From the NCBI GenBank assembly GCA_946625485.1, contig CAMOTB010000009.1, positions 1 to 39,026 of the forward strand: a DNA stretch of 39,026 nucleotides, given 5' to 3'. A program made the position numbers and the translations under genes. The notes below the pieces were generated by a model. The model saw only the letters and a program-made list of their open reading frames with translations. It was not told the DNA's origin and ran no database searches. Positions 13,418-27,099 of this stretch are shown in pieces. The stretch's first letter is position 1. Each line of letters starts with the position of its first letter. The stretch is from an uncultured Bacteroidales bacterium (GTDB lineage: Bacteria; Bacteroidota; Bacteroidia; Bacteroidales; UBA932).

Positions 13418-13503
13418 GCCGGCGGGGCAAGGGTGGTCGGGCAGTAGTCCATCCTCGCTTCGCTGCGGCTGCGTTACTGCCCAACCACCCTTGCCCCGCC
13501 GGC
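13418..13503. repeat. 29-bp imperfect inverted repeat (1 mismatch) flanking a 28-bp loop, just after the manA stop
   Basis: Left arm GCCGGCGGGGCAAGGGTGGTCGGGCAGTA (13418-13446); right arm TACTGCCCAACCACCCTTGCCCCGCCGGC (13475-13503). Confidence 0.85.
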
Positions 13504-13667
13504 TTGAAGAAGGCGTTACGGATAGCCGTTCCTCTTTTGTTTAGCTGATGCTGCGTTACTGCCCAACCGCCCTTGCCCCGTCGGCTTGAAGAAGGCGTTA
13601 CGGATAGCCGTTCCTCTTTCGTTTAGCTGATGCTGCGTTACTGCCCGACCGCCCTTGCCCCGCCGGC
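13471..13667. repeat. 82-bp tandem repeat, about 2.4 copies, between convergent manA and MATE genes
   Basis: GCGTTACTGCCC...TTGCCCCG starts at 13471, 13553 and 13635 (period 82); shared GGCTTGAAGAAGGCGTTACGGATAGCCGTTCCTCTTT. Confidence 0.9.
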
Positions 13668-24780: not shown

Positions 24781-25575
24781 ATGGTTATCCTTATCACGGG
24801 CATCACGTCCGGTTTCGGGCGTGCGATGGCCGGACGGCTTGCCGCTGACGGGCACAAGGTCTATGGAACTTTCCGCCGGGAGTCGGAGCGGCTTCCGGGC
24901 GTGGAGTATCTGCGGGCGGACGTTTCCTTTCCGACAGACTGTGAGACGGTGGTCCGGAAGGTGGTTGAGGCGGAGGGGCGGCTGGACGTCTTTATCAATA
25001 ACGCCGGCATGGGTATCGGCGGCCCGTTGGAATTCTCTTCCCTGGAAGATGCCCAGAAACAGATGGACATCAATTGGATGGGGATGGTGCGGATGCTGCA
25101 CTACGTGCTCCCCGTGATGCGTCGGCAGGGAGGGGGAAAGATCCTGTGTTTCAGCTCGATCGGCGGCCTGATGGGACTGCCGTTCCAGGGTTTGTATTCT
25201 GCGTCGAAGTTTGCCATCGAAGGCTATTGCGAGGCGCTGCGGCTGGAGACGCGGGGCCTGGGCATCCAGGTCGTCGTGATCGAACCGGGCGATTTCGCCA
25301 CGGCCTTTACGGCGAGTCGCAAAAGCGTGTCGGATCCCGAGGCGGATGCGGCTTATCCGGCCTGGGCACGGGCCCTGGCCTCCATCGAGAAGGACGAGAC
25401 CGGCGGGCTCAAGCCCGAATATCTGGCGGGGAAGATCTCTAAGATCGTGATGAAGAAGCGCCCGCGCTACCACTACGTCATCTCGACGTTGGAGCAGCGC
25501 CTTTCCGTTACGCTGAAGAAGATCCTTCCTCCCTCCTGGTTCGCCCGGATCCTGGGGAGTTATTACAAACTGTAA
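24781..25575 (+). CDS. Short-chain dehydrogenase/reductase
   Basis: TGITSGFG cofactor motif, NNAG, catalytic FSSIGG...YSASK. Confidence 0.92.
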   Translation: MVILITGITSGFGRAMAGRLAADGHKVYGTFRRESERLPGVEYLRADVSFPTDCETVVRKVVEAEGRLDVFINNAGMGIGGPLEFSSLEDAQKQMDINWMGMVRMLHYVLPVMRRQGGGKILCFSSIGGLMGLPFQGLYSASKFAIEGYCEALRLETRGLGIQVVVIEPGDFATAFTASRKSVSDPEADAAYPAWARALASIEKDETGGLKPEYLAGKISKIVMKKRPRYHYVISTLEQRLSVTLKKILPPSWFARILGSYYKL

Positions 25576-25590
25576 CTTTTGCGCGTTTTT

Positions 25591-25616
25591 GGGAGCAAAA
25601 CGGCGCTTTTTCTCCC
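25591..25616 (+). terminator. Hairpin after the SDR stop; possible terminator or degenerate first unit of the downstream array
   Basis: GGGAGCAAAA-CGGCGC-TTTTTCTCCC: 10-bp stem with one mismatch, 15 bp after the stop codon. Confidence 0.45.
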
Positions 25617-25629
25617 GAGAGGGGAGCGC

Positions 25630-25884
25630 CAGGTGCGAAACTGGGGTTTTTACACCCGGGAGCCCTGGATTCGGCGCCGTCAGGTGCAGAAGGGCGGTTT
25701 CTGCACCGCGGAGGGTCTGAAACGGTGGCTCCAGGTGCAGATAGGCCGTTTCTGCACCTCCGGTGGTTAGAAAAGAGGACGTCAGGTGCAGGAAGGCTGG
25801 TTTTGCACCGTAGGCGGCTGAAAAAGGGTCTGTCAGGTGCAGGATGGTCGGTTTTGCACCGCAGGCGGCTGCGGGTCCTGGAAG
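25630..25884. repeat. Array of five 51-bp tandem units, each with a GGTGC...GCACC-type hairpin
   Basis: CAGGTGC at 25630, 25681, 25732, 25783 and 25834 (exact 51-bp spacing); e.g. GGTGCAGAAGGGCGGTTTCTGCACC in unit 2. Confidence 0.9.
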
Positions 25885-25977
25885 TGAGTGAAGGCAGCCG
25901 TTGCGTTACGCTGATTCCGCCGGCGCTATCGCAGTGATTTCATGATCCGTCCTGTGAAAGAGTGATTTTCAAGAATT

Positions 25978-27099
25978 ATGAAGAAAGGAATCTATAGATG
26001 CTGGGCCACGGCACTTCTGTTGCTGGCCATCCTTCCGGGACAGGCGCAGGAGCGTCCCGGTCGCGGGCGGATGGAGTGGCGCTATGATATCGGTTTCCGG
26101 TATTATTTCGACAACCGGGAGTTTGATGCGTCGGAACCGTATCTGCTGAAATCGGGGACGACGCATGCGGCGGTGCTGACGCCGACGGTCAGTGCCTTGT
26201 GGCAGCCGTCGCGACGGGTGAAGCATACTTTGACGATGGGCGCTGATTTCCAGCATGATATGGGGGTTGCGACCTGGGACGGGACCTTCCGTGAGGGCAT
26301 CCTTTATTACGACGGACAAGTCCGGACCCGGAAAGGGATGTTTGAAGGCGTGGCGGGTATCTATCCGCGTGCGCTGATGCGCGAATTCTATTCCGAAGCT
26401 TTCTTTTCCGATCTGAACCGTTTCCAGGACCGTTATTTCGAAGGCGTTCTCCTGAAGTGGGCGGGCCGGCGTTTCCACACGGAGATGGCCCTGGACTGGC
26501 TGGGAAAGAAAAGCTATGAAAGCAAGGAGCGTTTCCAGATTATCAGCGCCGGATCCTGGGCACCCGCAAACTGGCTGGCACTGGGCTGGGCGGCCGATTA
26601 TTTCCATTATGCCGGTTCCTGGGAGGCGCCGGGCGTCGTGGATCACGGTCTGCTCCATCCCTGGCTCAAACTGGGCCTTGTCTCCCCGTCGTCGGATTTG
26701 TCCCTGAACCTTCGCCTCGGTGCGATCTTGTCCTACCAGTGGGACCGGCGACGCGCAGACAAGGCTTCCACGCCCGGGGGTGGGGAAGCGACGCTGACGC
26801 TTCGTTTCCGGAGCCTGTCGCTCGAGAACAACAGCTATTTCGGCGATGATTTGCTGCCGCTCTATGACGGCGTGGACACGGCCGGTCATCCGTATGCCGA
26901 CAATCTGTATTTCGGCCATCGTTTCTATACGGGCTTCTACGACCGGATCGGCTTGTTCTGGGAGCCGCGGATCGGCAAACGGGTCCGGTTCCGCCTCGGC
27001 GCCCGCGCCCATTTCACTTCCACCGGTTACATGGGCTGGCAGCAGACAGCGAGTCTCCGCTTTGATTTCGGCGAGGCCAAAGGCGGGAAGCTGCGCTAA
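25978..27099 (+). CDS. Uncharacterised secreted protein, probable outer-membrane beta-barrel
   Basis: Signal peptide ending GQAQ; alternating aromatic/hydrophobic strands (MEWRYDIGFRYYFDNREF, NLYFGHRFYTGFYDRIGLFWEPRIGKRVRFRLGARAHF). Confidence 0.7.
   Translation: MKKGIYRCWATALLLLAILPGQAQERPGRGRMEWRYDIGFRYYFDNREFDASEPYLLKSGTTHAAVLTPTVSALWQPSRRVKHTLTMGADFQHDMGVATWDGTFREGILYYDGQVRTRKGMFEGVAGIYPRALMREFYSEAFFSDLNRFQDRYFEGVLLKWAGRRFHTEMALDWLGKKSYESKERFQIISAGSWAPANWLALGWAADYFHYAGSWEAPGVVDHGLLHPWLKLGLVSPSSDLSLNLRLGAILSYQWDRRRADKASTPGGGEATLTLRFRSLSLENNSYFGDDLLPLYDGVDTAGHPYADNLYFGHRFYTGFYDRIGLFWEPRIGKRVRFRLGARAHFTSTGYMGWQQTASLRFDFGEAKGGKLR

Follow-up and report, generated by a model that had tools for sequence, protein, structure and literature searches.

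Arrangement of the hairpin array

Between an SDR gene and an outer-membrane beta-barrel-like gene, the window (the whole 39,026-nucleotide stretch of DNA analysed here) carries a run of short hairpins preceded by one more degenerate hairpin. From left to right, with coordinates in the window, the features are:

24781–25575, + strand: SDR gene, the upstream neighbour; its stop codon lies 56 bp before the array and 16 bp before the degenerate hairpin
25592–25615, no strand assigned: degenerate sixth hairpin of the GGAGC subtype, GGAGCAAAACGGCGCTTTTTCTCC, 40 bp before unit 1 (PWM scan, score 16.1)
25632–25886, + strand: tandem array of five 51-bp steps, each a 25-bp hairpin and a 26-bp spacer, head to tail (TRF and unit comparison)
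25632–25656, + strand: hairpin unit 1 (U1), GGTGCGAAACTGGGGTTTTTACACC, degenerate (pattern and PWM scans)
25683–25707, + strand: hairpin unit 2 (U2), GGTGCAGAAGGGCGGTTTCTGCACC
25734–25758, + strand: hairpin unit 3 (U3), GGTGCAGATAGGCCGTTTCTGCACC
25785–25809, + strand: hairpin unit 4 (U4), GGTGCAGGAAGGCTGGTTTTGCACC
25836–25860, + strand: hairpin unit 5 (U5), GGTGCAGGATGGTCGGTTTTGCACC
25978–27099, + strand: outer-membrane beta-barrel-like gene, the downstream neighbour, named by the first-pass annotation from a reading of the sequence only

The first-pass annotation had reported CAGGTGC at exact 51-bp intervals in five units, each with an inverted repeat, and both observations were borne out. 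The heptamer starts at 25630, 25681, 25732, 25783 and 25834; it occurs 11 times on the + strand of the window against 3.7 expected, and 5 of the 11 are in exact 51-bp register. TRF detected the array independently (25679–25871, period 51, 3.8 copies, score 170), and the 25-nt hairpins themselves, starting at 25632, 25683, 25734, 25785 and 25836, also step by exactly 51 bp. Their consensus is GGTGCA-A/G-A/G-A (GGTGCArrA), followed by 7–8 mostly G/C bases and then TTTTGCACC. Perfect matches to GGTGCA-n13-TGCACC number four in the 39-kb window, and every one is an array hairpin. Among the array units U1 matches least well; as single strands of the + strand, U2 to U5 fold better than shuffled sequences (z = −3.2, −2.2, −1.9 and −3.0, respectively), with G–U pairs on the sense strand maintaining the stems of U4 and U5. 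The hairpin core measures 25–27 nt and the arms reach 1–4 bp beyond it, a size in the range of the imperfect palindromes (20–40 nt) of classical REP/BIME elements.

The 26-bp spacers between the window hairpins resemble one another, and adjacent units are direct, head-to-tail copies. A loose GG..G..TGAAA..GG core, previously noted as part of the unit, corresponds to this spacer. The same annotation had favoured selection on the hairpin rather than recent duplication. Its first half agrees with the conservation described below; its second half does not stand, because the head-to-tail copies imply that tandem duplication took part.

No Rfam family matched the array. A scan of 25500–26050 for terminators (GC stem plus T tract) returned a sole match, no better than chance, which starts beyond the array at 25999; the array thus lacks the features of an intrinsic terminator. 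Nor does it look like a CRISPR array: here the repeats vary and the spacers are alike, whereas CRISPR arrays have near-identical repeats and unrelated spacers. The window holds a second tandem repeat between two genes (13468–13667; 82-bp unit, 2.4 copies, 95% matches), in which a search for hairpin pairs found none. Orthologous SDR genes in relatives have no array behind them, and because the next gene differs there, they provide no clean empty site for the window array.

Dispersal, placement and conservation of the hairpin

The genome to which the window belongs (G000) is 55% complete; other G numbers denote genomes of the same genus. In G000, we identified eight hairpin loci including the window, with about 20 units that are mainly extragenic; the other seven (C14, C22, C26, C35, C39, C100 and C109) mostly show 51-bp steps again (range, 50–53). 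A covariance model of the hairpin, the check proposed for homologous arrays elsewhere, recovered it in 25 of the 200 genomes searched within the genus; a search of 146 genomes representing 132 genera of the order gave no match in the 131 other genera. In a scan of named genomes with the bare single-hairpin pattern, which matched many loci, a partner at 51–53 bp occurred only in Bacteroidales/Bacteroidia (at least 14 loci) among the matches listed, and the source of many of these paired-hairpin records is the rumen or gut. The lone GGTGCAAAA hairpins of other phyla had no partner at 51–53 bp among the matches listed (one pair was 62 bp apart) and were taken as unrelated palindromes.

Spacing is narrowly distributed. 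The start-to-start distances of 78 steps in the loci examined are 51 bp (53 steps), 52 bp (22), 53 bp (2) and 50 bp (1). Over all steps, 60 are direct, 13 inverted and 6 tied; the window units are direct. Long arrays occur in G009 (9–12 units) and RUG14270 (7 units) (L026, L028 and L173). Several arrays lie near contig ends (G000 contigs 22, 39 and 100; G200 contigs 23, 30 and 90), which suggests that arrays break assemblies and that longer ones are thereby missed.

Most arrays sit directly behind the 3′ ends of genes. With genes called on both sides by a small codon-usage script trained on the window, 44 arrays divide into 20 in convergent, 19 in co-directional and 5 in divergent gaps, compared with 7, 50 and 43, respectively, of the 100 other gaps that measure 60 bp or more. 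Convergent gaps are thus enriched for arrays (20/44 versus 7/100, p = 2e-7) and divergent gaps depleted of them (5/44 versus 43/100, p = 2e-4). Some hairpins lie in frame within housekeeping genes, and because 51 bases are 17 codons, a 51-bp step preserves the reading frame. In mnmE, an in-frame doublet is present in G135 and G177, with the aligned place in G027 making three species:

L106, 2939–4384 (G177); L096, 2408–3817 (G135); L058 (G027): mnmE with a doublet that follows the GTPase domain and precedes the helical C-terminal portion
L087, 642–3323: hrpB with an in-frame hairpin
L117, 3129–5231: aroD-aroA fusion with an in-frame doublet
L086, 3615–4880: gene without assignment, with an in-frame hairpin

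Arrays vary between species in presence and copy number. One aligned place has two units in G223 and one in G104, and a doublet lies between a gene pair in G175 that in G177 stands without it; other hairpins are common to several species at orthologous places. A comparison of G104 with G223 as an empty site was rejected, as the insert proved to be 2.2 kb with unrelated open frames. This pattern fits hairpin units that arrive, persist for a while and are lost, the movement itself being unobserved; orthologous persistence of some hairpins would also be expected of fixed functional sites.

We examined covariation against shuffles with one hairpin per locus at 57 loci. The shuffles leave shared ancestry in, so the z-values are upper bounds: 6.2 for flank position +1 (paired in 84% against 51% of shuffled cases), 5.6 for arm position 3 (T–A versus A–T), 3.0 for arm position 1 and about 2 for flank positions +2 to +4. 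The claim that the hairpin is conserved more than the rest of the unit gains from this outer-stem signal. Covariation above background, however, is confined to the outer stem: the inner stem (arm positions 4–8, GCAAAA/TTTTGC) is conserved in sequence with covariation not above that of shuffles, and a ‘covarying RNA’ reading of it fails. Pairing at the loop edges is rarer than chance. G223 and G200 share an orthologous site at which their outer arms are unlike, yet each set pairs. The flanking columns have a paired G/A at +1 and are mixed beyond; GT[AG]G (GTAG or GTGG) was not seen there at the 5′ foot. In sum, the inner sequence of the hairpin is fixed, and its feet vary freely and are paired in most cases. 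Pairing is imperfect in some units: a T·T mismatch at pair 3 (GGTGC opposite GCTCC) occurs in the majority of G009 units and in part of those in L173.

Hairpins beside Y1 transposase genes

Complete Y1 units with hairpins of the window's GGTGC type occur in two species. On G200 contig 30, a hairpin at 59 is followed by a Y1 gene (157–1047) and by hairpins at 1070 and 1121, with the GGTGC type on both sides; the protein has 296 amino acids and the HUH motif MSNHLH. On RUG12551 contig 65 (L197), GGTGC doublets at 113 and 166 and at 1235 and 1287 enclose a Y1 gene at 271–1200. Such a gene was not found in the window's own, 55%-complete genome. Of the five Y1 genes that G000 does contain, four (L274, L275, L276 and L277) adjoin other hairpin types and L364 has no clear one. 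The GGAGC subtype of the degenerate sixth hairpin also flanks Y1 genes in other species.

Y1 homologues are present in 166 of the 200 same-genus genomes, with up to 11 per genome. Flank analysis covered 77 distinct Y1 loci; of 74 of these, 55 have the gene bracketed by hairpins. Palindromes number 6.1 per kb at Y1 flanks and 2.4 per kb in control DNA of the same loci. Centre distances peak at 51 bp (41) and 52 bp (23), and 68 of 190 pairs at Y1 flanks are 49–54 bp apart, compared with 21 of 264 in control DNA. Each Y1 gene has its own arms, including GTTTGTTCC, GTCCTC, GGGAGC, GTGTGC, TGTATGC, GCGCACG, GATCCC and others. The length of arm shared between loci tracks Y1 protein identity (Mantel r = 0.53; 0 of 2,000 permutations), a relation that is clearest above 70% identity. 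Another 52-bp tandem family, TGGTCCAACGnATGGACCA, with many repeats, adjoins a Y1 gene in L300 (G011 contig 7) and also occurs on G011 contigs 1 and 19.

The proteins, approximately 280–335 amino acids long with a Y motif of YVxRNG or YxxMN, form two groups (A2 and A3) that are homologous over their length (alignment probability, 100) and have invariant NHxH and Tyr/Asn positions. When sought across the order, neither group turned up in any of the 131 further genera sampled. The best matches in a search of solved structures are IS200/IS605 transposases, albeit weak (E = 0.016–0.02). Matches in NCBIfam and Pfam mostly fall below cut-off, among them NCBIfam REP_Tyr_transpos (E = 6e-9), and a search with Pfam Y1_Tnp alone did not separate genomes with arrays from those without. 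The C terminus is predicted to be helical; a structure prediction from two eligible sequences reached a pLDDT of 42, too poor for judging the fold.

Interpretation and comparison with known systems

Palindromes of the REP, BIME and REPIN kinds are associated with RAYT (TnpAREP) transposases (PMC2817692, PMC3116915, PMC3733652). We consider it probable that the window array is a REP/BIME-like, non-coding and non-autonomous palindrome cluster belonging to a genus-specific REP-associated HUH/Y1 tyrosine transposase (RAYT) system. The array had been described as no known element; its behaviour is instead that of palindrome arrays of the REP/BIME kind, accompanied by a cognate family of transposases. 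One hairpin would constitute one unit, occurring in doublets or longer runs with centres 51–52 bp apart. In some species a Y1 gene of about 300 codons lies between doublets, and elsewhere, as in the window, the hairpins stand alone. By analogy with known RAYT biology, the Y1 transposase may read the single-stranded hairpin through its arm sequence (GGTGC in the window) and may cut and rejoin beside it, thereby spreading units. These would settle mostly behind the 3′ ends of genes, where they may do little harm, and local head-to-tail duplication could then extend the array. That the Y1 protein recognizes, cuts and moves the hairpins is thus inferred from that biology, by which the Y1 genes probably copy hairpins around the genome. 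The approximately 20 units in G000 are far below classical REP copy numbers, and this counts against a REP/BIME reading. Further points against it are the missing GT[AG]G foot, the failure to find in the incomplete G000 a Y1 gene with GGTGC hairpins or, for the window array, a clean empty site, the T·T mismatches in many G009 units and the orthologous persistence of some hairpins.

The spacing invites another explanation. Because 51 bp is about five helical turns of B-DNA, a dimeric nucleoid, segregation or regulatory protein bound to each palindrome would face the same side of the helix along the array. Such arrayed binding sites would account for spacing that stays at 51–52 bp over unrelated arm sequences, for the inner GCAAAA...TTTTGC that is conserved without covarying and for the vertical persistence of some loci. 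The arms, however, vary from one Y1 gene to another in step with the transposase rather than with a single host protein, the outer stem covaries where a dimer site has no need of it, and the distribution is patchy (25 of 200 species); we regard this explanation as unlikely. We give still less credence to an RNA element, in which transcribed hairpins behind genes would end transcription or protect the 3′ ends of mRNAs. The location downstream of genes and between convergent ones would suit it, as would the good folding of the + strand units as RNA and the pairing kept in U4 and U5 through G–U on the sense strand. An RNA-level function, which the first-pass annotation had entertained, is nevertheless unsupported: the array lacks a terminator-like site, doublets or hairpins lie within translated genes (mnmE, hrpB and the aroD-aroA fusion) and, with co-directional neighbours, G·U outnumbers A·C by only about 12 to 9, small numbers that give no clear strand bias.

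Replication slippage of a chance palindrome, a plain minisatellite with no mobile system, would explain why the units of the window follow one another head to tail and are alike even in their spacers, and why an orthologous place can have two units in one species and one in another. It is already disfavoured by dispersal, as an identical hairpin type and spacing recur at many unlinked loci in many species, and transposase genes are flanked by the hairpins; we consider it very improbable.

Within the REP/BIME-like reading, a more specific proposal is possible, and we offer it tentatively, as something that may well prove wrong. What a new branch of HUH transposases, restricted to this genus, actually recognizes could be the hairpin doublet with its fixed five-turn distance. 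The arms would be freely re-coded with each transposase and the spacing would stay constant, so that one genome would contain many REP-like systems that operate in parallel and are specific with respect to one another. Apart from this proposal, the REP/BIME-like reading itself implies that an uncultured gut and rumen Bacteroidales genus carries a large radiation of REP-like systems; a single genome has several of them, which differ in their arms and share one spacing. Such a radiation provides a natural series of matched hairpin–transposase pairs from which to learn how an HUH transposase reads a hairpin, allows spacing to be tested against sequence as the constraint, and accounts for a repeat class that recurs near the ends of contigs in these assemblies. 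Most of what is known of REP palindromes and their transposases comes from Proteobacteria. A literature search for the hairpin arrays described here found no earlier report among the papers covered; REP-like versions in Bacteroidetes are mentioned, in a 2018 study, only as ‘atypical structures’ (PMC6006769).

IS200/IS605 elements, which include the best solved-structure matches, share the HUH/Y1 transposase and subterminal hairpins. The protein here is twice as long, most hairpin arrays have no transposase gene, and the paralogues are divergent rather than near-identical copies. TIRYTs (TnpAY1 subclass 2.1) are Y1 proteins lengthened by an extra C-terminal portion, and they are reported to be associated with long terminal inverted repeats and not with REPs (PMC3733652, PMC6006769). 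The present proteins resemble them in length and in a C-terminal addition, here predicted to be helical, and differ in that hairpin doublets flank the Y1 genes. Of the branches described so far, TnpAY1 subclass 2.6 comes closest; for it, Quentin et al. 2018 (PMC6006769) report a Bacteroidetes host, ‘atypical secondary structures’, hairpins without GT[AG]G with copies elsewhere in the genome, a median length of 179 amino acids and the Y motif YIH[QN]NP. The host and the flanking hairpins without GT[AG]G are points in common. Because protein length (approximately 280–335 amino acids) and Y motif (YVxRNG or YxxMN) set the family apart from the subclass as described there, we keep it out of subclass 2.6.

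The comparison with REP/BIME–RAYT systems reveals both differences and likenesses. The GT[AG]G foot is absent here, the 51–52-bp spacing is constant across many arm types, and up to 11 Y1 homologues per genome accompany far fewer hairpin copies per family. Classical REP/BIME doublets are inverted; in the arrays from this study most steps are direct and a minority inverted. In common with those systems, the palindromes are short and dispersed, form doublets and clusters, are intragenic in some cases and are biased towards gene 3′ ends and convergent gaps; and the Y1 gene is flanked by its own palindrome type, with arms and transposase diversifying together.
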